A stretch of 41,234 bases of DNA. It comes from a virus. The notes under the pieces are model-generated. The model did not search any database. It was not told the origin of the DNA and saw only the letters and a program-made list of their open reading frames with translations. Both the position numbers and the translations under genes were made by a program. The stretch spans positions 1 to 41,234 of the IMG/VR virus record IMGVR_UViG_3300042452_000147, one strand, 5' to 3'. Positions 1,255 through 12,786 of this stretch are shown here, in pieces. Every line of letters begins with the position of its first letter. Within the stretch, counting starts at the first letter, position 1.

Positions 1255-2367
1255 CTACTTCGCCTTCGGCTTCTTCGCTGGCGTTTCAAGTTCTGCCTTC
1301 TTGCCGGTCAGCGTCTCCCACCGCTTGACGATCACGTCGCAATACTGCGGGCTGATCTCCATGCCGTAGCACTTGCGGCCAAGCTGCTCGGCGGCGATCA
1401 GCGTGGTGCCAGAGCCGAGGAAGGGGTCGAACACGTCGCCGCCTGCGTAAGAAAGACACCACGCAATGAGACCGACGGGCTTTTGTGTCGGGTGCTCCTT
1501 GTCGTAGGACGTGACAGATAGGCGAAACATTTTTGCTGGGGTGTCGACGTTAGTCCATGCCATCTCGCACATCGCCAGAGTCAAGTCTTCTGGCTGTTTC
1601 TTGTCCCACACGAAAAAACCTTTCGCGGGCGGCAGATCGAAGTAGTTGCCACCCCACACGATCGACTGTGAAACAGATTCAACGAACGCTCTCGGCTCGA
1701 CCGGCTTTGCATCCCAATCGGCTTTCGCGTGCTTTTGCCTGACCGGATTGGACGCAATACCGATGCCGTAAGGCGGATCGGTGACCATGCAGTTCGCCTT
1801 CGCCCCAGCCATCAGCCGCTCCACATCTTCCGCCTTCGTCGAGTCGCCGCAGAGAAGGCGATGCTCTCCGAGAATCCAGAGGTCGCCAGGCTTCGTGATC
1901 GGATCGACCGGCGGCTCGGGCACCTCGTCCTCGACGATCTCCTTGTCGCCGTCCTGATAGAGCCCAGCGTCTTCGGCTAGGTCTGAAAGCATCTGCTGCA
2001 ACTCAGGCGAGCCGGTATCGACTTCACGCAGGATGGCGTCCAGCTTGGCTGCGTCTGATTCCGCCATTGCAGCCAGCGGGTCAAGGGTCGCAAGCACCTT
2101 GTCGCCCTCGGCTTCGTTCACGTCGAGGACGAGCACAGGCAGGATTTGGTCGCCCATCGTCTCGACGCGAAGATGCCCGTCTAGGAGCATCAGCGTGCCG
2201 TCCTCCAGTTCGCGGGCAAGCACGGCGTCCGCAATACCTACCTCGGCCAGAACGCCCTTCAGAGCGTCAGCCTGGGCCTTTGGATGCGTCCGCCAGTTCT
2301 TCGGATTGGGTCGCAATTCGGAGGCAGGAACACGGCGAAGCTCGCTGATTCTGTCACGGATTTTCAT
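1255..2367 (-). CDS. ParB-like domain fused to a DNA N6/N4 methyltransferase
   Basis: 370 aa. Residues 10-100 resemble a ParB/sulfiredoxin-type domain (LDGHLRVE at 62-69). Residues 160-355 are an amino-methyltransferase with the catalytic DPPY at 197-200, HPTQKP at 292-297 and the SAM-binding DPFLGSGTT at 314-322; DPPY before FxGxG is the beta-class order. It should transfer a methyl group from SAM to adenine N6 or cytosine N4 in DNA. Such ParB-methyltransferase fusions are frequent in phages, where they may protect phage DNA or mark packaging sites. It sits directly upstream of terL with a 3-nt gap. No strong Shine-Dalgarno precedes the ATG. The Lys-rich tail (361-370) may aid DNA binding. 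Confidence 0.92.
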   Translation of the reverse strand: MKIRDRISELRRVPASELRPNPKNWRTHPKAQADALKGVLAEVGIADAVLARELEDGTLMLLDGHLRVETMGDQILPVLVLDVNEAEGDKVLATLDPLAAMAESDAAKLDAILREVDTGSPELQQMLSDLAEDAGLYQDGDKEIVEDEVPEPPVDPITKPGDLWILGEHRLLCGDSTKAEDVERLMAGAKANCMVTDPPYGIGIASNPVRQKHAKADWDAKPVEPRAFVESVSQSIVWGGNYFDLPPAKGFFVWDKKQPEDLTLAMCEMAWTNVDTPAKMFRLSVTSYDKEHPTQKPVGLIAWCLSYAGGDVFDPFLGSGTTLIAAEQLGRKCYGMEISPQYCDVIVKRWETLTGKKAELETPAKKPKAK

Positions 2368-2498
2368 GGCTCAGAACGGCTCCAGAAGGGGCGAGAACAA
2401 AGAAAGAAAGTGTGATAAATGGCAAGCTCGCCGTGGAGGCTAGAAGCGAAAAACGCCGGGAGAACCTAAAAAAATCGCTGGACGTGCGGGCGGGAATG

Positions 2499-2556
2499 CC
2501 TTGTTTTCTAGGCTTTTTCGCACTTCACGCACGTTTTGCCCTTGTTTTCTAGGCTT
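2499..2556. repeat. 17-bp direct repeat pair downstream of the PD-(D/E)XK gene
   Basis: CCTTGTTTTCTAGGCTT occurs at 2499-2515 and again at 2540-2556, 41 bp apart. The second copy ends 1 bp before the stop codon of the nuclease-like gene. The surrounding 190-bp gap (2368-2557) has no convincing gene and is more AT-rich than its neighbours. The role is unknown. Confidence 0.8.
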
Positions 2557-2557
2557 G

Positions 2558-3079
2558 TCAGAACAAAAGCATCTGTTCGCTAGCAAACTCGCCACGCTTG
2601 CCCTCAACGACTGACCATGCGTCGCGCCACTTTGCGTGACGATCTCTGACGAAGCATCCGCAGACCATCTCCTGAAACTGAGGGCAGCGAAATTCTTTGA
2701 CAGGAATGAAGTATCGCTCATCAAAGGACGCAAGATGGACAGCCAATACATCAAAATCTTCTAGCGAATATCGTCTGCATGTAGAGCCAACTACGGGACG
2801 CACGGGCCGGACATCAACCGTTCCCTTTGTTGACCCGCTGCTTTTCGCTTGTACTCGATAGCCATTAATGACCAAGTCATACGGAAGTTTCTTGTGTGAC
2901 ACATTTTCAAAGTCAAACCCGGCTTTGGCTGCTTGATCTGCTAGCCAATCCTCGAACAGAAAACCTCCCATTGCCGTCATGAGACGTCCTGCGGCATCTG
3001 GCCTATCAAGAAATGCAAGCATCGCTGCGACGAGCGCCTGCTTTTGATCTTCGCCAAATGTGACAAGCTCACGACTCAC
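2558..3079 (-). CDS. PD-(D/E)XK nuclease-like protein
   Basis: 173 aa. The pattern is that of small PD-(D/E)XK proteins similar to group I intron-associated or Holliday-junction-type nucleases: a helix with Glu43 (GGFLFEDW), then Asp68 (YDLVI) and the Q77-x-K79 strand (VQAKS), followed by YSLEDFDVLAVHL and a YFIPV strand at 123-127. These are the expected metal-binding and core positions, so endonuclease activity is plausible. The ATG overlaps the rusA stop as ATGA (3076-3079), implying translational coupling. It could be a free-standing homing-type nuclease, a restriction partner for one of the methyltransferases, or a repair nuclease. The fold call is moderately sure; the role is unknown. 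Confidence 0.6.
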   Translation of the reverse strand: MSRELVTFGEDQKQALVAAMLAFLDRPDAAGRLMTAMGGFLFEDWLADQAAKAGFDFENVSHKKLPYDLVINGYRVQAKSSGSTKGTVDVRPVRPVVGSTCRRYSLEDFDVLAVHLASFDERYFIPVKEFRCPQFQEMVCGCFVRDRHAKWRDAWSVVEGKRGEFASEQMLLF

Positions 3080-4001: not shown

Positions 4002-4067
4002 ATCGTCCGTCCTTTCGACTAGTGAAAGCCGCTCCGTGCGGCACTGCGAATCACACTAGCGAGCGTG

Positions 4068-4382
4068 TCAACTCAAAGCGGTAAAGCGAAATCCATCCCA
4101 CGAGTATTTCGGGGCGATGACTCGCTCTGTCTTTGGCACTGCTGGCGGCTCTCGCCGTGCTATGCACTCAGCCGCACGCTCTTTGATCTGCTCTGGCGTC
4201 GGATCGTCTTCCTGTGGTCCGTGGTGGCACCGAGGACGTCGCGGCAGGCCGTGACGTTTCCGTAGCTTTTCGACGTAGCCGGCTGAGCAGCCCAAGGCGG
4301 CGGCAATCTCTACATGAGTATTGCCAGCCGCCCAGAGCCGCTTCAGCACGTTCTTGTCGTAGACAAGTCGCCAAACTCCCAT
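4068..4382 (-). CDS. Helix-turn-helix DNA-binding protein
   Basis: 104 aa from the ATG at 4382, which overlaps the dnaN stop by one base (TGATG); a start upstream inside dnaN is less likely. Residues 6-45 (LKRLWAAGNTHVEIAAALGC then GYVEKLRKRHGL) fit a homeodomain-like HTH with a recognition helix and a basic end. The rest is charged with no clear fold. It may be a transcription regulator or a terminase-small-subunit-like DNA binder. The 66-bp gap downstream (4002-4067) has no gene. Confidence 0.7.
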   Translation of the reverse strand: MGVWRLVYDKNVLKRLWAAGNTHVEIAAALGCSAGYVEKLRKRHGLPRRPRCHHGPQEDDPTPEQIKERAAECIARREPPAVPKTERVIAPKYSWDGFRFTALS

Positions 4383-5503
4383 CAGGCATCCACCGCCAGT
4401 GGCATGATCACGCCCGTGTTGTCGCCGCACCGCAAGATCACCGCCGACTGTGCGTCAACGGCTTCGACTTCAACCTCTGGCTCGGCTTCGCTGTCGATGC
4501 CGCCAAGCCATTGCTGGACGAACAACGGGTCCAGCTTGACCGTCGCCTTGTCACCGGCTTCCACGACGTCGCAGGTGACGCTTGATTCGCCCTTCTCGCT
4601 GCTCTGGCCGTGCAGCCAGATGCCGTCGCCAGAGAACACGAACTGCACACCTTTGCTCTCATCGCTGGTCACGATGGCTGCGGCCCGCGTCGCTGCCAGC
4701 AGATCCGCACGGCTGACCGTGGTTGCCTTGGCGTCGCGATCCGGCAGCGTGTCACGCCAGCGAGGGTATCGACCGTCAAGTAGACGAGCCGTGACGGTAG
4801 CGTTGCCAATTGTGGCGACGATCTCGTTCTTGGTTGCCTCCAGCTGAACGCTGGCATCACCGCACCCAGCTGCGAGCCGTGCGATGATTGCCATCGCACG
4901 AGCCGGAACGAGCGTCTGCGAGTCGTCAACCGCAAGGTCGTGCTCGCAGTTCACGCACGAGAGCCGGCGACCGTCCGTGGCAACAAACGTGACAACCTCG
5001 CCTTTGACTTCCACGAGCACCGCACCGAGAGCGTAGCGGCTCGACTCGTCGTCCACGGCGAACACGACACCTTTGACGGCACGGCAGAACTGGTCAACCG
5101 GGAGCCGCGTGACAGGCTTCGCACCGTCAACGCTCCACGCGGGATACTCGCCAGCGTCCTCGGTTGGCAGCGTCCACTCGCCACGCCCAGCCTTGATGAC
5201 GCATGACGACTCGTCAGGCGTAATCGTGATTTCATCGCCCGTGAAACTGCCAAGGATGGCGGAAAAGCGATCCTTTGGCAGCAGGAAATTGATGCCGGGG
5301 GGGGCGGTTTCCAGCGTGACGTCGATTCGCACGTCACCGTCACTCCCAGACAGAACCCCGCCCGATAGGAGCACGCTCTGGTAGATGGGACGTGGCGACC
5401 TTGTCGGCACCGCCTGGCCCACGGCTGCGAGAGCCGCCTTGAGTTCCGGTGCTGACAGGCTGATGCCACCAGCCTTCGTCTTTCGTTCCTTCGTCATTGT
5501 CAT
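4382..5503 (-). CDS. dnaN: DNA polymerase III beta subunit (sliding clamp)
   Basis: 373 aa, the normal clamp length. The sequence shows the three-fold repeated clamp architecture: an N-terminal domain (ISLSAPELKAALAAV), a middle domain (VVFAVDDESSRYALGAVLVE and FVATDGRRLS) and a C-terminal domain ending in a MPL motif. It forms a ring on DNA and tethers the polymerase. I set the start at 5503 because GAAAGGATG lies just upstream with 7-nt spacing. No DNA polymerase gene is visible here, so the clamp probably recruits host Pol III. A C8 homopolymer (plus-strand G8, 5297-5304) lies in the coding sequence. Confidence 0.92.
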   Translation of the reverse strand: MTMTKERKTKAGGISLSAPELKAALAAVGQAVPTRSPRPIYQSVLLSGGVLSGSDGDVRIDVTLETAPPGINFLLPKDRFSAILGSFTGDEITITPDESSCVIKAGRGEWTLPTEDAGEYPAWSVDGAKPVTRLPVDQFCRAVKGVVFAVDDESSRYALGAVLVEVKGEVVTFVATDGRRLSCVNCEHDLAVDDSQTLVPARAMAIIARLAAGCGDASVQLEATKNEIVATIGNATVTARLLDGRYPRWRDTLPDRDAKATTVSRADLLAATRAAAIVTSDESKGVQFVFSGDGIWLHGQSSEKGESSVTCDVVEAGDKATVKLDPLFVQQWLGGIDSEAEPEVEVEAVDAQSAVILRCGDNTGVIMPLAVDA

Positions 5504-5603
5504 TCCGCACATCCTTTCGCAGAGAAGTCCCAACCAAAATGCCAGCCGTGAACGTCACGGCGTGGAGAACCGAACCGATGAAAATGAATGCGAAGTCGCT
5601 CAT
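5340..5603 (-). CDS. Possible small membrane protein overlapping the 5' end of dnaN
   Basis: 87 codons starting at an ATGA overlap with the cytosine methyltransferase stop (5600-5603). The first 28 residues form a convincing membrane segment (FAFIFIGSVLHAVTFTAGIL). The tail is hydrophilic and reads through 164 nt of dnaN in another frame. The 97-nt space before dnaN plus the coupling signal argue for translation. The long overlap argues against constraint on its C-terminus. No family recognised. Confidence 0.4.
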   Translation of the reverse strand: MSDFAFIFIGSVLHAVTFTAGILVGTSLRKDVRNDNDEGTKDEGWWHQPVSTGTQGGSRSRGPGGADKVATSHLPERAPIGRGSVWE

Positions 5604-6589
5604 GACGTCATCCTCGCTTCCGCTGCAAGGATCGCCCGCCCGATGACTTCGACAACTTGCGGGACGACGGCGTTGCCGAGGCATCTAAGGCGGTCCACCC
5701 GTGAGGGAATCCCATGAGCCACTCGACCCACGTCGGGTTCAGACTCCCACCAGCCACTGCGTTCAGCGGCAAGCTGTTCCGCTGGTGTTGGCTCGGGGCG
5801 CCGTTGTTGCTGGCGTCCTGCACGGTTGGCGTTGGGTACATCGCCACCTTGACGGCTTGGTTGAGCGTCAACCCAAAGCCGTTGCCGTTCTTGTTCTTTT
5901 CCTTGCACCGCTCTCGTCTCGCAAGCAGTGCAGGAACGTCCGCAATGTCGAAGCCGTGCGCAGTCGGAGTCGGCCACATTCGATAACCGTGCGTATGTTC
6001 TGCCGCAACCTGCGTCGCCAGTGGACACTGGCGACGCAGGTGCAGCCGCTTGGCCTCGTTCAACAGCGCTGGCAGCGATGCTGCCGCCGATGGGTTCGCA
6101 ACGGGCGTTGCCCACAATCCAGATCCGTTCGCGTCTGTGCGGAGCACCAACGGCTGAAGCCGGTATGCAATGCCATTCCGCATCAAACCCGATTTCGGCC
6201 AAGTCGCCGAGAACGGTTCCGAGCCCTCTAGCAGTGAGAGCTGGGACGTTTTCGATGACCACCCATCGAGGCCGAACTGTGCGAATGATCCGAGCAAAAT
6301 CGTTCCAAAGACCGGACCTCTCGCCTGCGAGTCCTGCCCCCTTGCCAGCGACGCTGATGTCTTGGCAGGGGAAGCCGCCGCAGATGAGATCGACGCTGAA
6401 ATCCTGTGTGTGTGTGTGTGTTGGCGGGAAGGTTCGCACGTCGTCGTGTTTGGGCACGTCGGGCCAGTGCTTGTTGAGGACTGCTCTTGCATACGGGTCA
6501 ATCTCCACTTGCCACTTGCACGTCATTCCGGCCCGCTCAAGACCGAGCGAAAAGCCACCAATCCCTGCGAACAGTTCGCCAAACGTCAC
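5600..6589 (-). CDS. DNA (cytosine-5) methyltransferase
   Basis: 329 aa with the ordered C5-methyltransferase motifs: FAGIGG (motif I, 7-12), the catalytic PCQ with Cys75 (motif IV), ENV at 113-115 (motif VI), a RRERIW motif VIII at 152-157 and GNAVVP (motif IX/X region) at 305-310. It methylates cytosine C5 using SAM. The target-recognition region (about 165-290) is low in recognisable structure. A (TG)8 repeat at 6405-6420 encodes a Thr-His run (56-61) between motifs I and IV, so slippage there would inactivate the enzyme. The ATG overlaps the upstream stop (ATGA, 6586-6589). The +1 frame over the same DNA is also protein-like (separate entry). Confidence 0.93.
   Translation of the reverse strand: MTFGELFAGIGGFSLGLERAGMTCKWQVEIDPYARAVLNKHWPDVPKHDDVRTFPPTHTHTQDFSVDLICGGFPCQDISVAGKGAGLAGERSGLWNDFARIIRTVRPRWVVIENVPALTARGLGTVLGDLAEIGFDAEWHCIPASAVGAPHRRERIWIVGNARCEPIGGSIAASAVERGQAAAPASPVSTGDAGCGRTYARLSNVADSDCARLRHCGRSCTACETRAVQGKEQERQRLWVDAQPSRQGGDVPNANRAGRQQQRRPEPTPAEQLAAERSGWWESEPDVGRVAHGIPSRVDRLRCLGNAVVPQVVEVIGRAILAAEARMTS
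5608..6501 (-). CDS. Protein-like out-of-frame ORF within the cytosine methyltransferase gene
   Basis: This +1-frame ORF (297 codons) lies wholly inside the C5 methyltransferase gene. From about 6300 to 5608 its translation contains motifs I recognise from phage proteins often annotated beside cytosine methyltransferases: FSATWPKSGLMRNG, two W/YPTPT motifs (MWPTPTA, MYPTPTV) and LNPTWVEWLMGFPHGWT. The part upstream of about 6300 looks like a shadow. It could be translated separately or by frameshifting, or only reflect a relative that uses this frame. No ribosome-binding site was found for it. Confidence 0.35.
   Translation of the reverse strand: MTRMQEQSSTSTGPTCPNTTTCEPSRQHTHTHRISASISSAAASPAKTSASLARGQDSQARGPVFGTILLGSFAQFGLDGWSSKTSQLSLLEGSEPFSATWPKSGLMRNGIAYRLQPLVLRTDANGSGLWATPVANPSAAASLPALLNEAKRLHLRRQCPLATQVAAEHTHGYRMWPTPTAHGFDIADVPALLARRERCKEKNKNGNGFGLTLNQAVKVAMYPTPTVQDASNNGAPSQHQRNSLPLNAVAGGSLNPTWVEWLMGFPHGWTALDASATPSSRKLSKSSGGRSLQRKRG
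6405..6420. repeat. (TG)8 dinucleotide tract in the methyltransferase gene
   Basis: Eight perfect TG repeats encoding alternating Thr-His in the minus-strand methyltransferase, between motifs I and IV. Gain or loss of one unit shifts the frame. This is the classic arrangement for slipped-strand phase variation. Confidence 0.85.
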
Positions 6590-6777: not shown

Positions 6778-7040
6778 GCGTCACCGCCGATCATCGCCAT
6801 GCCAAGCGGCGTCAGCTTCAGAGTGCGGGCCTGCCCAGGCTCACGAGTCACAACGCCTTTGCGCTCCAGCGACCGCAAGTGCGTGGACGTGGCGGCACTT
6901 GGGCTTCGCCATCCGTAGTGGCAACCGACTTGCCTGTACGTCGGCGGGTAGCCGTGCGTGTCAATGAAACCGGCAATCCACTGAAGGATGTCCAATTGCC
7001 TGGGAGTTAATGTTGGGGGCGCGTCAATCGTCGTACTCAT
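6774..7040 (-). CDS. LexA-type winged-helix DNA-binding protein
   Basis: 88 aa. LTPRQLDILQWIAGFIDTHG followed by YPPTYRQVG and a recognition segment ending HLRSLERKGVVTREPG is the N-terminal DNA-binding domain of LexA. The C-terminal serine peptidase/dimerisation domain is absent, so RecA-stimulated self-cleavage is not expected. It probably regulates phage or host transcription, and could compete at SOS-like boxes. It is coupled by ATGA overlaps to the genes on both sides. Whether it binds the CTAACG-N4-CGTTAG operators at 15081-16121 is open. Confidence 0.8.
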   Translation of the reverse strand: MSTTIDAPPTLTPRQLDILQWIAGFIDTHGYPPTYRQVGCHYGWRSPSAATSTHLRSLERKGVVTREPGQARTLKLTPLGMAMIGGDA

Positions 7041-7861
7041 GCGAGTGCCTCCTTGCTGGCTTCAAACTTTCTACGGGTACGTGCAAGCGCCTCGGCGGCT
7101 TCTCCGGTCCATTCCTTCGGTGGAGGCGCTGCGTCGGCAAAGTCTCTGCTCTTACGGTCGTCGTTGCGGTCGTCGTATTCGCCGCCGTTGCACAGCGTCA
7201 CGAAGTCAGGACCGCAGAACTGGCCGAGCGATACGGCGGTTTTGAAGAACCGGCACTTTCCAAGACGCTCAATCGCCTCCAAGGCGTCATCGAGCCAACC
7301 AGACTCCGCGAGCCGCTCGACTGCCTTGGGATGCGGGTTGACTGGTTTCCAACGCTTCCCCTTGCCTGCGTTCCAAGCTTTGCGAAGCGTCTGCCATGCC
7401 GTCTTGTCGAATCCCTCACGCGGTAGAGGAGGAAGTTCTTCTCTTCTCTTCTCTTCTTCTCCTCTGGTCCGGTTTCTGTCCGGTTGTGACCCGGACAAAT
7501 TTCGGACAGAATCCGGACACGACCGAGAAGCAGACTTCCGCTTGGCGTCTAATGCCCTAGTTTTTGCGGTGTCGCTGCAATGCCGGTCGAAACGCGGGAA
7601 GCTCAGTCCCTCGCCTGTTTCGGCCAGCCAGCCCACCCTGACAAGGGCGGCACCGAAGCCCTGGCACTTCGCCAAACGGTCAACCCACGAAATCCCGATG
7701 CCGTCAGCGTGTCCGTCGTGCGTGTGCCTGTCGGCCCACGACCACAGACGGAACAACTTGCCGATGACGGCGTCGTCGTCCAGCTGCACTATGTCGGCCA
7801 GGCGGATGACGGCAGGGTCGTCCGCAAGGTCGTGACGCATTTTCAGCCACTCACCGGCCAT
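7037..7861 (-). CDS. Putative phage replisome organiser / replication initiation protein
   Basis: 274 aa. The N-terminal 100 residues (GEWLKMRHDLADDPAVIRLA, then SWADRHTHDGHADG) resemble the winged-helix start of phage replication proteins of the DnaD/replisome-organiser type. A basic, low-complexity linker (about 105-150) leads to a C-terminal half ending in a charged helix. Proteins of this layout load the replicative helicase or primosome at the phage origin. It lies immediately downstream of the repeat array 7862-9210, which makes that array a candidate origin or control element. The Shine-Dalgarno is AGGAAGGG. The call rests on N-terminal resemblance only. Confidence 0.5.
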   Translation of the reverse strand: MAGEWLKMRHDLADDPAVIRLADIVQLDDDAVIGKLFRLWSWADRHTHDGHADGIGISWVDRLAKCQGFGAALVRVGWLAETGEGLSFPRFDRHCSDTAKTRALDAKRKSASRSCPDSVRNLSGSQPDRNRTRGEEEKRREELPPLPREGFDKTAWQTLRKAWNAGKGKRWKPVNPHPKAVERLAESGWLDDALEAIERLGKCRFFKTAVSLGQFCGPDFVTLCNGGEYDDRNDDRKSRDFADAAPPPKEWTGEAAEALARTRRKFEASKEALA

Positions 7862-7985
7862 CCGTAGCCACCCTTCCTATGCCGCAAAGCGGCCCATGCC
7901 AAACCACAACTAGCCCCGCATTGCATTGCCCGACCATGCCGGAACTCAACAAAACTGAACCAACCATTCCGTGCCGCAATCCATC

Positions 7986-8030
7986 CCACACCTCCAGCGT
8001 TGATCTGGACCCGTGCCTGCACGGGTGTGG
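7986..8030 (-). repeat. Array unit 1
   Basis: Plus-strand positions: outer stem CCACAC 7986-7991 with GTGTGG 8025-8030; hairpin CCAG 7994-7997 with CTGG 8005-8008 (loop CGTTGAT); hairpin CCGTG 8011-8015 with CACGG 8020-8024 (loop CCTG). Confidence 0.75.
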
Positions 8031-8095
8031 TTTTAAAAACAGGACGCAACACAACTGGCCCCGACTTGCCTCGCATCACCGGACCTCATCACATC

Positions 8096-8140
8096 CCACC
8101 ACGTCCGCGTTGATCGGACTCCGTTCCTTAACGATGGTGG
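8096..8140 (-). repeat. Array unit 2
   Basis: Outer stem CCACCA 8096-8101 with TGGTGG 8135-8140; hairpin GTCCG 8103-8107 with CGGAC 8115-8119 (loop CGTTGAT, as in unit 1); hairpin CGTT 8122-8125 with AACG 8130-8133 (loop CCTT). Confidence 0.75.
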
Positions 8141-8209
8141 TTCCTTGGCTGGCCGTGACGGGCCAAGCCACGGCTAGACACGACATAACGTGCCGTGCCG
8201 GACCCTGAT

Positions 8210-8512
8210 TCATGTGATCAACTTGCAACGCATCTTGCGCAGCATTCGCTTCGCCTTTTCTAGTGGTACATGCCGAGCACCTTGAAGGCTCGGCCACTCG
8301 CTTTTCATATACGCATGCCCTTCGCTTGTAAGCCTGACGCCGCCTCCGTATGAAACAAAAAAAGCCCTCGGAACTCTTGCGTCCAGATACGGAACTAAGA
8401 AAAACGAGACAGTTCCATCCTTGTGGGCCTGCACGTGGAACGGATATTCGTCCATGTGAGCAAAACAGAAATTCGCCAACTGCCTCGCCGAAGTGATCTT
8501 GCTGATAGTCAA
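8210..8512 (-). CDS. Small hypothetical protein embedded in the repeat array
   Basis: 100 aa from a TTG at 8512, chosen because AAAGGAGG (8519-8526) lies 6 nt upstream; no ATG is better placed. The sequence has beta-rich segments (VSFFLVPYL, AFFVSYGGGVRL) and a basic C-terminus (KAKRMLRKMRCKL) that could bind nucleic acid. It lies between array units 3 and 2, where the unit spacing widens from 110-147 to 443 nt, so it looks inserted into the array. Unit 3 ends 27 nt upstream of the start codon and could influence translation. No family recognised. Confidence 0.65.
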   Translation of the reverse strand: MTISKITSARQLANFCFAHMDEYPFHVQAHKDGTVSFFLVPYLDARVPRAFFVSYGGGVRLTSEGHAYMKSEWPSLQGARHVPLEKAKRMLRKMRCKLIT

Positions 8513-8538
8513 CTTACGCCTCCTTTCAAAGGACAATC

Positions 8539-8584
8539 CCACCTAGCAGCATCAAAGCTGCAACCACGCCGACCGTGTAGGTGG
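8539..8584 (-). repeat. Array unit 3
   Basis: Outer stem CCACCT 8539-8544 with AGGTGG 8579-8584; hairpin GCAGC 8546-8550 with GCTGC 8557-8561 (loop ATCAAA); hairpin CACG 8565-8568 with CGTG 8574-8577 (loop CCGAC). Confidence 0.75.
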
Positions 8585-8674
8585 TTTCCATGAGTTGGCA
8601 AAACTTGCCTCAACCGACCTGAACACAACAAAACGCAACGCAACGGAACCCGACTTACCTCGCCTTGATTCATC

Positions 8675-8721
8675 CCACTCCGCGACGCTCGCCGCCGCAC
8701 GCTTGCTGACCAAGAGAGTGG
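8675..8721 (-). repeat. Array unit 4
   Basis: Outer stem CCACTC 8675-8680 with GAGTGG 8716-8721; an imperfect first hairpin GCGACG 8682-8687 with CGCCGC 8693-8698; hairpin CTTG 8702-8705 with CAAG 8711-8714 (loop CTGAC). Confidence 0.7.
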
Positions 8722-8821
8722 TTTGCATGACATGCCCGAACTTACCGCGACTGAACTAGCCGAACTCGAACCCAACGCACCTTGCCATTCCATGCCTCTC
8801 CGCAACGGACCGAACTCCATC

Positions 8822-8867
8822 CCGCTCCGCGTCATCGAAGACGCAGTTGTGCCGACCACAAGAGCGG
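8822..8867 (-). repeat. Array unit 5
   Basis: Outer stem CCGCTC 8822-8827 with GAGCGG 8862-8867; hairpin GCGTC 8829-8833 with GACGC 8840-8844 (loop ATCGAA); hairpin TTGTG 8847-8851 with CACAA 8857-8861 (loop CCGAC). The outer-stem change A to G is matched by T to C on the other side. Confidence 0.8.
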
Positions 8868-8937
8868 TTCGCAAAACCAACCTGACCGGAGCCTGTACAG
8901 ATAGGCCCAACCCAGACGTGACAAACCAAAACCGATC

Positions 8938-8982
8938 CCTCTCCGCGCCACCGAAGACGCACCATGCCGACCATGAGAGAGG
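8938..8982 (-). repeat. Array unit 6
   Basis: Outer stem CCTCTC 8938-8943 with GAGAGG 8977-8982; hairpin GCGCC 8945-8949 with GACGC 8956-8960 (one mismatch, loop ACCGAA); hairpin CATG 8963-8966 with CATG 8972-8975 (loop CCGAC). Confidence 0.75.
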
Positions 8983-9063
8983 TTTAATTGCCATACACCA
9001 ACACGACAGGGCCGACCCGGACTCAACCAACCTGGAACCGACTCACCAGACCATGATTCAATC

Positions 9064-9109
9064 CCACTCCGCACCGTCGAAGGTGCTTCCGTGCCTATCA
9101 CGAGAGTGG
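9064..9109 (-). repeat. Array unit 7
   Basis: Outer stem CCACTC 9064-9069 with GAGTGG 9104-9109; hairpin GCACC 9071-9075 with GGTGC 9082-9086 (loop GTCGAA); hairpin CGTG 9090-9093 with CACG 9099-9102 (loop CCTAT). It is the first unit in the direction of transcription. Confidence 0.8.
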
Positions 9110-9210
9110 TTCCTTGCCCAGGCATGACAAGCCGGGACATACCCTGCCGAGCCGCATCCTGACCGACCGGAACCGGCCATTCCGCAACCCAGGCAAGATT
9201 CGTTTGCTTG

Positions 9211-9834
9211 TTACGCACCGACAGTCTCTCGCTCACGGCGAGCCTTCTTGATGGTGACGTTCTCCACCTTTTCAGCAGTGAACCGACCGCAGCGAGGACG
9301 CCAATCGCACAGGCCAACCTGCGTGCCAGCAGAGTTGACCCAGCGGTCCACCTGCTCCTCGTTGACGACGGAGTCCTCGTACTCCACCTCGATCACGGCA
9401 GACCAGTCCTTAAAGATCGGGCGAGTCCGCATGATGCGACTCATGCCGACCTTTACGCCGACACAGTTGCGGAACTCTTCTTCCTGCCACAGGCCGTCAG
9501 CGTCGCGCGGCCCGTCGTACAAGAGCACGGCGTGCTTTGGCACGAAACACGCCGACTTGGCGATCTTGCCTTCCTTGGTGATCTTGGCCGCCGAGTACAG
9601 CGTGGCCTCGATGTTCTCGCCTGGGATAACAGGCCCGCTGTCCTCGTCCATGTAGAGACCGGCCTTGAACTCAATCTCGGCCATGCGCTCAAAATCGGCG
9701 TCGGTCTTCTTCTTCTTGGACGTCACCTGCTTCAGCTGCTTAGAGGCAGCGGACAGCGGGTTTGCGAGAGCTCCATTGTGCATGATCAGAGGCGCGTCGC
9801 CTGTGATCCGATACGTCAACGTCTTCCAAGCCAT
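9211..9834 (-). CDS. Conserved phage protein of unknown function
   Basis: 207 aa from the ATG at 9834, which follows GAAAGGATGTGTTCT. Distinctive parts are YRITGDAPLIMHNGALANPL at the N-terminus, a Lys-rich segment at about 40-45, VIPGENIEATLY near 70, SRIMRTRPIF and a C-terminal GLCDWRPRCGRF. I recognise this layout from phage genomes, usually near recombination genes, but know no established function. It directly precedes the repeat array in the transcript and ends 101 nt before unit 7. The overlapping HNH gene runs 95 nt into its start. Confidence 0.8.
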   Translation of the reverse strand: MAWKTLTYRITGDAPLIMHNGALANPLSAASKQLKQVTSKKKKTDADFERMAEIEFKAGLYMDEDSGPVIPGENIEATLYSAAKITKEGKIAKSACFVPKHAVLLYDGPRDADGLWQEEEFRNCVGVKVGMSRIMRTRPIFKDWSAVIEVEYEDSVVNEEQVDRWVNSAGTQVGLCDWRPRCGRFTAEKVENVTIKKARRERETVGA

Positions 9835-10147
9835 AGAACACATCCTTTCGTGATGTAAACCCTTCAGAAACACAACCAACAGTTACCGGCTGACCGTCGT
9901 AACGACGGGACCGGATTACGCTTGTGACCGCTTCGTGGCACTGACAGCAAAGCGTTATCAAGTCGCGTTGCACGTCCTCGTTTATGAAGCGTTCGTATGT
10001 TTTGTGATGCACTTCAAGCCTCCACGTTGATCCGTCGTGAAGGCACGTCTGACACTGGTGTCCGTCAATCTCCAGCCGCTCTTGCCGCTTGCACGACCAG
10101 GCGTGGCTTCCGATGTATCTCTCGTAGTTTTGTTCGTGCGGCCTCAT
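9740..10147 (-). CDS. HNH endonuclease-like protein
   Basis: 135 aa from an ATGA overlap (10144-10147), preceded by GGAGGG. It shows a zinc-supported HNH core: Cys32-x2-Cys35, the paired His47-His48 (LEVHHKTYERF) and Cys67-x2-Cys70-His71. Such proteins cut DNA, and in phages they often aid packaging next to terminases or act as homing nucleases. Recognisable sequence ends near residue 90. The last 45 residues include 95 nt that overlap the next gene and look unconstrained, so a late loss of the original stop is possible. Confidence 0.8.
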   Translation of the reverse strand: MRPHEQNYERYIGSHAWSCKRQERLEIDGHQCQTCLHDGSTWRLEVHHKTYERFINEDVQRDLITLCCQCHEAVTSVIRSRRYDGQPVTVGCVSEGFTSRKDVFYGLEDVDVSDHRRRASDHAQWSSRKPAVRCL

Positions 10148-10455
10148 GCCACCCTCCATTCCCTCTCACCCCGCCCGCTCGCACTCCGTACTGTCCTGCC
10201 CGTCTCCACGATCTTCCCAGCCCGTGCAAGCTCGTTGATCCGCTTTCCGATCTGGTGCGGCATCAGTCCGCACCGTGCCGCGATGCCTGACGCACCCGCC
10301 GGCCCATGCGACAGCGCCTCGAGGATCGCCGCGTGGTGCTCGCCGGCGAACGTCTTGACGCTGGCGGCTGCGGCCTTGCTCGTCACCGGATCAGTGCGGC
10401 GGAATAGCGGCAGTGTGTCCTCAATGTCTGGCGTGATGTAGTGCGGGCGGATCAT
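10144..10455 (-). CDS. Winged-helix DNA-binding protein
   Basis: 103 aa. DPVTSKAAAASVKTFAGEHH followed by AILEALSHGPAGASGIAARC and RINELARAGKIVETG forms a winged-helix fold of the type seen in small phage regulators; the end (GEREWRVA) is the wing strand. It is joined by ATGA overlaps to the methyltransferase upstream (10452-10455) and the HNH gene downstream (10144-10147). A transcription factor or replication accessory role is plausible; no target is visible. Confidence 0.7.
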   Translation of the reverse strand: MIRPHYITPDIEDTLPLFRRTDPVTSKAAAASVKTFAGEHHAAILEALSHGPAGASGIAARCGLMPHQIGKRINELARAGKIVETGRTVRSASGRGEREWRVA

Positions 10456-11348
10456 GCCACAGCCTCCGGTGCATCAAACAGCGTCCTGCTGTTCGCCTGG
10501 TGCGTCCGCTCTGCCTTCGCCAGATTCTTCAATGCCTGAGCGTGGTACTCGGGCTTCAGTTCGCAGCCGTAGAAGCGGCGTCCCTGCTGCAGCGACACGT
10601 ACCCCTCGCTGCCGATGCCGGTGAACGGGCTGAAAACCACCTCGCCGGGATTGCTGTACAGCCTGACGAGCCTGTCAATCACATCCAGCTGCAGCGGGCA
10701 GATGTGCTTCGTGTCTTCCTCGCTACGTGCCTCTTTGACGTTGAGCGTGTTCGTCTCGCGGATGTCGCTCCAGCAGCACTCGGCCCAGTCAATCCACTCG
10801 TTGCGTGAGACGTCGCCATCCGAGTCGATGGCTACTTCGTTCTCGCCGGGGGCACGGAACTTGATGAGGTAGTCGGGTAGGCATCCACGCTGCTTCGCTC
10901 TGTCGCTCTCAAGGCCGGCGAACTGCAACTCACGGCTGCGAGTGCGGATTGCCTGTGCCTGCGGATTCTTCCGCACCACCCAGTCGTATTCGTAGACAAG
11001 CCCGGCACGCTCGCCGAGGCGGATGTTGAGTCCACGGTAGTCGTGCAGGCCGACTTCGCCGGAACGCTTCAGCCTCGGGATCTGCATGACGTGCACCACG
11101 ACAGCCCGGCCCGGCTTCAGCACGCGGGCCAGCCCGCGAAAGAAGTAGGACAGGTGTATCTTGGCTTCGCCTTTCATGTTCTCGCTGTTGCCGATGTCCT
11201 CGGCCTTCGAGGTGTACGAGAACAGGCTGGGGAACGGCGGCGAAAAGACTGAGAAGTCCACCGACTGCGGCGGCATTTCTTCCAGCATGTGCGGGATGCA
11301 GTCGCCTTGGTGAACGGCATATTTCTGGTCAGTTGGTAGAAGAGTCAT
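10452..11348 (-). CDS. DNA N6/N4 methyltransferase (SPPF type)
   Basis: 298 aa from the ATG at 11348, with AGGAGG 8 nt upstream; it overlaps the helicase stop by 20 nt. The catalytic motif is SPPF at 36-39 (a DPPY variant, more usual for N4-cytosine enzymes) and the SAM-binding motif is FSPFTGIGS at 239-247, giving a beta-type order. HICPLQ at 215-220 is typical of the group. Large phage methyltransferases of this kind are common beside recombination genes and may block host restriction. It is the second of three DNA methyltransferases in the window. Confidence 0.9.
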   Translation of the reverse strand: MTLLPTDQKYAVHQGDCIPHMLEEMPPQSVDFSVFSPPFPSLFSYTSKAEDIGNSENMKGEAKIHLSYFFRGLARVLKPGRAVVVHVMQIPRLKRSGEVGLHDYRGLNIRLGERAGLVYEYDWVVRKNPQAQAIRTRSRELQFAGLESDRAKQRGCLPDYLIKFRAPGENEVAIDSDGDVSRNEWIDWAECCWSDIRETNTLNVKEARSEEDTKHICPLQLDVIDRLVRLYSNPGEVVFSPFTGIGSEGYVSLQQGRRFYGCELKPEYHAQALKNLAKAERTHQANSRTLFDAPEAVA

Positions 11349-12786
11349 GAAACATTTCCTCCTGCTCTCGGGTGTCGGCCTCGACGCGACGTGCCTTACG
11401 CAGCACGTTCTCAACCATCGGGCGCTCGATGTCGGTCACTGGGATATGGACGTTCAGTGGGCGAGTTGAGCCAACTCGGTTGGAACGCTTCACGGCCTGG
11501 TAATACTCCTCGTAAGAGTCCTGCAAGCCGCTGAATACTTGCCGCGTGCAGATCTGCAGATTGAGTCCGAAGCCAAGGATCTTGGGCTTCGTGATGAGCA
11601 CCTTGATGCGTCCAGCCTTGAACTCGTCAACGAGTCGCTGGCGTTCTTCTTGCGGCGTCTTGCCGTCGATGCTCGCAGCATCCGGCATCATGGCGGCGAG
11701 CATGTCCTGCTCGTCGTTGTAGCGGCACCAGATGATGGTGCTTTCTGTCGGCCACTCTCGCACCATGTCAACGATGTACTGTGGCTTGATGCTGCTTTCG
11801 CACTTCGCCATACGCGAGAGCTTCGCCCTGGTGGTGATGCCGCCGAGTTGCGTGACGAACAGCTGCCCGGTAATGGCTTGAACTGCTTTGTCCTGCTCTG
11901 CAGAAAGCCGCACGTCGTCAATGTGGACGTGAATGGGCGGGATGTTGTGGACGTTGTCGGCCCAACCGTAGGTGCTCGGGTCAGTCAGGAAGATGCACCA
12001 GTGAGACAGTGCCTTGTAAAACGGCCTCAATGCGTGCGGCTTGAGTTCCCATCGCTCCATCGTCTGCCCGCGATTGATGAAGAACTTCGCGAGGAACGAA
12101 TTGACGTTGGGAAAAGCATCGAGAAATACAGCGTGATTCGCGTACTCGATGCGGTCATTCGGTGCCGGCGTGCCAGTCAGCGCCAGCTTCCACTCCACGC
12201 CAGCCCCGATGCGTAGGCACACCTGGCCCCATTTGCCGTAGTGGCTCTTGAGCATCGACGACTCGTCGAGGATAAGCCCGCCGAGGTTGCCGTCTGGCGT
12301 GTCGTCACGCAGTGCGTCGTAGTTGGTGATGCCGAGCCGCCCGCCGGGCTTCTTCATCCACTTGGCGAGATCCTTGGCGGCTACCTGCTCGATGGGCAGC
12401 GTGTCACCGTAGAACTTCTGAGCCTCGGCAATCGTCTGTGCCACTACCATCAGAGGCGAGACAATCAGCACCGGCTTTTTCGGGCACGCCTCGCGGACGT
12501 GGCGAGCGAACTCCAACAGCATCAGCGTCTTGCCAAGCCCGCAGTCGGCGAAGATGGCGTAACGCTTCTTCTCTACTGCCGTGCGGACGATGTCGCGTTG
12601 ATAGTCAAACAGGCCAGGTCGTGGCTCGTAGGCTGAAGCCTTTGCCTTCTTCGCCTTTACGCCGATGTCGCCTGCGTACTCGTCAGGAAACCACGCCATC
12701 CTGCCGTGAATCTCGTATCGCGGAAGCGACTTGATGCGAAGGAACTTGCGGTATGAGTCGATCGTGTCGTCAAGATAAATCTGCAC
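11329..12786 (-). CDS. SNF2/SF2-family DNA helicase
   Basis: 485 aa from a GTG at 12786 with GAAAGGA 6 nt upstream; the ATG further upstream lacks a ribosome-binding site. Motifs in order: Walker A ADCGLGKT at 80-87, DESS (motif II, DEAH-like) at 174-177, LTGTPAPND (motif III) near 203-211, and a C-terminal helicase lobe with ILGFGLNLQ and a Q..KRSNRVGSTRPLNVH motif VI. It is an ATP-driven DNA translocase, likely used in phage recombination or replication with the Sak4-like and SSB-like proteins encoded upstream. Confidence 0.92.
   Translation of the reverse strand: MQIYLDDTIDSYRKFLRIKSLPRYEIHGRMAWFPDEYAGDIGVKAKKAKASAYEPRPGLFDYQRDIVRTAVEKKRYAIFADCGLGKTLMLLEFARHVREACPKKPVLIVSPLMVVAQTIAEAQKFYGDTLPIEQVAAKDLAKWMKKPGGRLGITNYDALRDDTPDGNLGGLILDESSMLKSHYGKWGQVCLRIGAGVEWKLALTGTPAPNDRIEYANHAVFLDAFPNVNSFLAKFFINRGQTMERWELKPHALRPFYKALSHWCIFLTDPSTYGWADNVHNIPPIHVHIDDVRLSAEQDKAVQAITGQLFVTQLGGITTRAKLSRMAKCESSIKPQYIVDMVREWPTESTIIWCRYNDEQDMLAAMMPDAASIDGKTPQEERQRLVDEFKAGRIKVLITKPKILGFGLNLQICTRQVFSGLQDSYEEYYQAVKRSNRVGSTRPLNVHIPVTDIERPMVENVLRKARRVEADTREQEEMFHDSSTN

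Follow-up and report, generated by a model that had tools for sequence, protein, structure and literature searches.

What kind of element lies between the replication initiator gene and the gene at 9211–9879 of this phage, where small folded units alternate with evenly phased linkers, and what do the linkers encode? The stretch of DNA analysed, referred to here as the window, corresponds to a single IMG/VR virus record of 41 kb and carries the genes of a tailed phage. Most of the identified genes, including those on both flanks of the array, are carried by the minus strand. The phage also has three DNA methyltransferase genes (1255–2367, 5600–6589 and 10452–11414) and its own DNA clamp gene (4382–5533).

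The original prediction described seven three-way junctions. All seven were found, with lengths of 45–47 nt and at coordinates that were essentially right (Table 1, where each junction is delimited by its outer stem), and the fold was the one proposed, a 6-bp outer stem enclosing a 4-bp and a 5-bp hairpin. With a fixed descriptor, the units matched on the minus strand while the plus strand gave only one match, and the wobble pairs of the units are G.U in the minus sense. Thus, the units are in RNA sense on the minus strand, in agreement with the strand that had been suggested for the fold.

Two size classes of units were recognised, one with a 5-nt loop 1 and a 6-nt loop 2, and the other with a 4- or 5-nt loop 1 and a 7-nt loop 2. 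Covariation was examined for the two classes separately, in 16 and 16 distinct units taken from the window and from homologous phages. Paired cells reached 99.6% and 100% in the two classes versus 82–85% in shuffles, changes on both sides of a pair were seen in 9 and 8 of the 15 pairs, and the covariation score was 0.577 and 0.384, against <=0.15 and <=0.06 for slid structures. The claim that the structure is under selection is borne out across homologous phages. Loop 1 ends with GG in 47 of 49 distinct units (AG in the other two), while loop 2 reads [U/A]UC[G/A]A in nearly all of them. No Rfam model reached its gathering score on the units, and relaxing the threshold to E <= 5 added no credible match, which places them in no Rfam family. 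ARAGORN detected no tRNA.

The linkers had been described as pentanucleotide-phased, and this part stood: their autocorrelation at lags of 5, 10, 15 and 20 gave z values of 17, 17, 16 and 14. The pentamer frame runs from the first base past each outer stem. Position 1 is G in 68%, position 2 is G or T in 81% and position 3 is C or T in 78% of the pentamers, with positions 4–5 near random, so that the consensus is GKYNN, i.e. G-[G/T]-[C/T]-N-N. The linkers appear to be GKYNN pentamer guides of a VIPR system rather than mere spacers; this role, the central one in the array, had escaped the original prediction. A five-state phase model served to decode the guides, which were then slid over phage DNA. 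The array holds 8–9 guides, some of them reaching about 24 pentamers and showing frame slips, and a covarying three-way junction closes every guide except the last. Linkers join most of the units as predicted, but the gap between the second and third units, in plus-strand order, also holds a small ORF; it is restricted to close relatives, and its translation probably begins further in, behind AAAGGAGG.

Table 1 Predicted features of the array and its flanking genes in the window
Feature	Coordinates	Strand	Evidence
Predicted vipr gene (phrog_4652), RAMP/Cas7-like protein	9211..9879	-	PHROG match 2.4e-57; PDB 36pp profile; AF2/Foldseek
Putative guide W_0, pentamer tract ahead of unit A	9110..9198	-	phase decoding
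Three-way junction type A	9064..9109	-	CM 71.3 bits
Putative guide W_1, 81 nt	8983..9063	-	phase decoding
Three-way junction type B	8938..8982	-	CM 71.3 bits
Putative guide W_2, 70 nt	8868..8937	-	phase decoding; matches relatives' wHTH gene
Three-way junction, variant of type B	8822..8867	-	CM 74.2 bits
Putative guide W_3, 100 nt	8722..8821	-	phase decoding
Three-way junction, variant of type A, unusual loop 2 GGCGAGC	8675..8721	-	CM 45.5 bits
Putative guide W_4, 90 nt	8585..8674	-	phase decoding
Three-way junction type C	8539..8584	-	CM 71.1 bits
Small ORF, 110 aa, within array	8210..8542	-	ORF list; PHROG scan without family
Putative guide tract W_6, between small ORF and unit D	8141..8209	-	phase decoding
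Three-way junction type D, 7-nt loop 2 ATCAACG	8096..8140	-	CM 27.3 bits (CM built solely from the other size class)
Putative guide W_7, 65 nt	8031..8095	-	phase decoding
Three-way junction type E	7986..8030	-	CM 23.9 bits (CM built solely from the other size class)
Putative terminal guide W_8 and small hairpin, ahead of rep gene	7862..7985	-	phase decoding
Replication initiation gene	7037..7861	-	PHROG 2509 E 4.9e-52

The original prediction also missed the role of the flanking gene at 9211–9879, whose family profile matched PDB 36pp, "SUSP1 Vipr protein", with an E-value of 1.8e-52. Its AlphaFold2 model (pLDDT 89.7, pTM 0.83) was used for a Foldseek search, in which the predicted fold matched Csm3/Cas7 (E 1.7e-5 for Csm3) as well as type VII RAMPs. 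Judged by this homology and by the modelled structure, the gene encodes Vipr, a Cas7-like single-RRM RAMP protein of the VIPR system, with M16 (9834) as its likely start codon. An HNH gene adjoins vipr in the window.

VIPR, for Viral Interference Programmable Repeat, was described from phage SUSP1 and a P. fulva prophage in a preprint of April 2026 (PMC13142463). According to its main text, the guide RNAs (vrRNAs) consist of GGY/NN pentamers, 9–16 repeats in number, followed by a 3′ tail, which in SUSP1 is a pseudoknot, a fold and not a ribozyme. The NN letters are read on DNA targets and one base, usually the wobble base, is skipped. The system silences genes, is assigned a role in phage-phage conflict and comes in seven types, with several array layouts that include hammerhead-interspersed arrays (fig S19, as cited in that main text).

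We consider it very probable that the region is a VIPR array, made of a Vipr gene, a minus-strand guide array and junction tails and directed at the silencing of rival phage genes. Features in common with the SUSP1 and P. fulva systems are a phage-borne Vipr RAMP protein, pentamer guides with hypervariable NN, a structured 3′ tail, the skipping of one base at the wobble position and targets in rival phages. On the other hand, the tail of the window units is a tRNA-elbow-like three-way junction instead of the SUSP1 pseudoknot, the consensus GKYNN is looser at the second G than the published GGYNN, some guides are longer than the published 9–16 repeats, and the vap partner (phrog_5926) was not seen among the window genes scanned; this partner is present in wV8, LittleE, LESphi2 and L072. 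The description of the array as undescribed therefore holds for one of its parts only: the kind of array is known, while the tail fold is new with respect to Rfam and the main text of PMC13142463, and the window adds a VIPR array beyond the systems characterised there.

A search with the 9211–9879 protein identified near-copies of the window and, in eight further contigs, distinct sister arrays. Across them, the types of unit and their order (A to H, some being lost) were retained along with the covariation of the stems. The linkers diverge across the sister arrays and keep the 5-nt phase, the units being far more conserved than the guides. The array is often directly upstream of a replication initiator. 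Among contigs with more distant homologues of the protein, two, L064 and L065, have related three-way junctions (40–48 bits) in their arrays. Furthermore, in the unrelated phages L066, L068, L072, L073, wV8, LittleE and LESphi2, a Vipr homologue is flanked by pentamer arrays. In L076 (3696–3961) and in mycobacteriophage LittleE (L081:4158–4372), the elements between the guides are apparent acceptor-plus-T-arm minihelices with UUCGA loops, a reading backed by single-sequence folds for some of these elements only. In Felixounavirus wV8 (L078), the "DR_4" repeat regions at 2449–3003 and 4034–4422, flanking gene 95, lie within VIPR guide arrays.

Target matches of these wild arrays support the one-base-skip code independently, at the sequence level. 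The last guide of sister array L007, read with a one-base skip, had as its best matches the first codons of the replication initiator in the window and in L035/L038, its target being ATG GCx GGx GAx TGG CTG AAx ATG, with the start codon setting the frame. When the search was restricted to replication-initiator starts, the 11 best matches among all guides belonged to the terminal guides of L007, L009 and L013, and all 11 were in codon register. At offset 0 of the rival rep start, these terminal guides matched 18, 18 and 17 of 20 letters, as compared with 0 of 600 shuffled guides above 15 and with scores never above 16 for skips of 0, 2 or 3. The array owner's allele has diverged from the rival one, with 15/24 vs 21/24, 16/20 vs 18/20 and 10/20 vs 17/20 (own vs rival) for L007, L009 and L013, respectively. 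On sequence comparison, the published rule thus holds for these three sister arrays, and the start codon region of the rival replication initiator can be named as a recurring target. Similarly, the gene that comes first after the array of L065 is matched at its start by the last guide of L064 at 15/16, against 12/16 in L064 itself.

As for the window's own guides, W_2 matched a winged-helix-like regulator gene (phrog_1123) at 19–20/22 in four relatives and at 15/22 in the copy of the window phage; the skipped base corresponds to a wobble position on the opposite strand. Since its raw score of 16.6 barely exceeds that of the best shuffled guide (16.3), the match is only suggestive, and so is the conclusion that the window's guides obey the one-base-skip code. 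Exact 20-letter target patterns of W_8 and W_2 had no match in IMG/VR.

We infer transcription, processing, binding and silencing by analogy with the main text of PMC13142463. The Vipr (RAMP) gene would be followed by a minus-strand array of vrRNAs in which each linker is one guide, a GKYNN run whose NN letters would pair with DNA while one target base is skipped between dinucleotides, and in which each three-way junction would be a structured 3′ tail that caps its guide and separates it from the next. The order of guide and then tail is the simplest reading because in L011 the last unit is directly followed by a ribosome-binding site and in L064/L065 a terminator-like hairpin ends the last guide; it also agrees with the main text of PMC13142463. 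Vipr would coat the pentamers, and the ribonucleoprotein would bind and silence rival phage genes, favouring rival alleles over its own. The tail itself might serve as a tRNA-elbow-like handle and/or a processing element.

In tRNA, the GG of the D loop contacts positions 55–56 of the UUCRA T loop. Because the loop letters of the units match this elbow, the unit reads as an acceptor-like stem with D and T arms, namely a 4-bp D-like hairpin (loop ...GG) and a 5-bp T-like hairpin (loop [U/A]UCRA), and the two loops would be expected to form the same tertiary contact. It differs from tRNA in its 6-bp acceptor-like stem and in having neither anticodon arm nor CCA, and the tRNA models of Rfam and ARAGORN are blind to it. 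Perhaps the tail is a tRNA mimic at which RNase P and/or RNase Z of the host releases each guide by cleavage, a possibility that we put forward tentatively. The tertiary-contact letters of the two loops, the minihelices with UUCGA loops in the unrelated arrays of L076 and LittleE and the fact that a lone unit may directly precede a gene without guides are all in its favour, whereas the short outer stem, the absent CCA end and the silence of the tRNA models speak against it. That the tails are elbow mimics handing the array to host RNase P or Z, and that this recurs in unrelated VIPR arrays, is accordingly a proposal to be held with reserve; if true, it would be a natural, phage-made counterpart to the guide arrays spaced by tRNAs in genome engineering. 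It is also conceivable, if far from assured, that the tail is only a protein-binding handle for Vipr or a partner, like the repeat handle of a crRNA, with no role in cutting. Its position at the 3′ end of the guide is that of the SUSP1 tail, a fold and not a ribozyme in the main text of PMC13142463, and the conservation of units over guides would fit such a handle, but Vipr homologues elsewhere pair with quite different tails and the unit is found outside guide arrays too.

A self-cleaving ribozyme of an undescribed class, cutting the array as hammerheads do elsewhere in VIPR, seems unlikely. The hammerhead-interspersed arrays of PMC13142463 (main text) offer a precedent in having a structured three-way-junction RNA between guides, small ribozymes are typically three-way junctions with loop-loop contacts, and a new class would be expected to have no Rfam match. 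However, conservation in the single-stranded parts is highest at the letters of a tRNA elbow, and no Rfam ribozyme was matched even at E <= 5; a hammerhead in particular was rejected, as the CUGANGA core is absent on both strands and no Rfam hammerhead match was obtained. It is very improbable that the array is a replication origin or another DNA element, as its frequent location directly upstream of the replication initiator might suggest, for the wobble pairs fit a minus-strand RNA only, the linkers diverge yet keep their phase, the guides, when read by the published code, match genes of rivals, and the pentamer arrays of other phages adjoin vipr and not rep. With the region read as a VIPR array, how guide arrays are cut and how VIPR spares its own genome become directly testable.

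The exclusion of CRISPR, tRNA, GOLLD/ROOL and attenuator layouts in the original prediction was upheld. Class 1 CRISPR-Cas arrays resemble the window array in having a RAMP protein on a guide array and structured caps between guides, but a CRISPR array was rejected since its units vary in sequence instead of forming near-identical direct repeats, the genes scanned included no cas gene and the pentamer code is noncontiguous. A tRNA was rejected on the zero results of ARAGORN and Rfam and on the lack of an anticodon arm. Integron-like cassette sites were discarded because the unit order is fixed across phages, without shuffling, and sites for a TRAP-type ring protein, suggested by the 5-nt period, were dropped after the Vipr homology emerged.

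The host of the phage is probably a planctomycete, because one occurrence of the unit comes from a metagenome bin of a planctomycete (L044) and the related contigs have replication genes in common; the assignment rests on that one bin. Among 392 planctomycete genomes, with few candidates scored in each, a convincing E-value was obtained only for the contig of this known MAG, which led us to reject a host-chromosome element, and six other matches were near chance level. Chance-like CM scores were also obtained for the contig scan matches L043, L045 and L046 and for L003 and L004, the first viral pattern search for the units returned only chance-scoring loci, and a distant blastn search of the array against phage records gave no match.

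Apart from the arrays, fourteen loci (L020 and L030–L042) and L044 carry one unit each, at the 3′ end of a conserved RNA of ~200 nt that is not made of pentamers. This RNA (e.g. L037:11890–12062, plus strand) lies mostly behind an SSB-like gene, with variable genes downstream; it shows the motif GGCCCGYCCTGGCC..AGCGGATTGGGC..CACCGGC.. and has no match in Rfam. A divergent Vipr-like ORF with a pentamer array of its own behind it also occurs in at least 2 of the single-unit phages and in the L044 bin. Another VIPR type is apparently present in L083, L084 (1084–1941) and L085 (1220–1909): behind a divergent Vipr-like ORF (E 5e-9 to 1.5e-7), RGCNNGG-like pentamers extend over roughly 0.6 to 1 kb, and the motif GGCACGGCAGGA recurs among them.

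Intergenic regions of L020 (about 2430–2530, minus strand), L037 (12070–12160), L040, L044 (550–640) and L031 (1795–1900, minus strand) share another conserved hairpin element, ACCCGGCGGCGGGCGG..GGCCACGGAAAAAACCGCCCGCCG. In L031, a second three-way junction (CCACCT..GGGTGG; 1525–1575, minus strand) lies after an inserted ParB-like gene and directly 5′ of the ribosome-binding site of a small gene.
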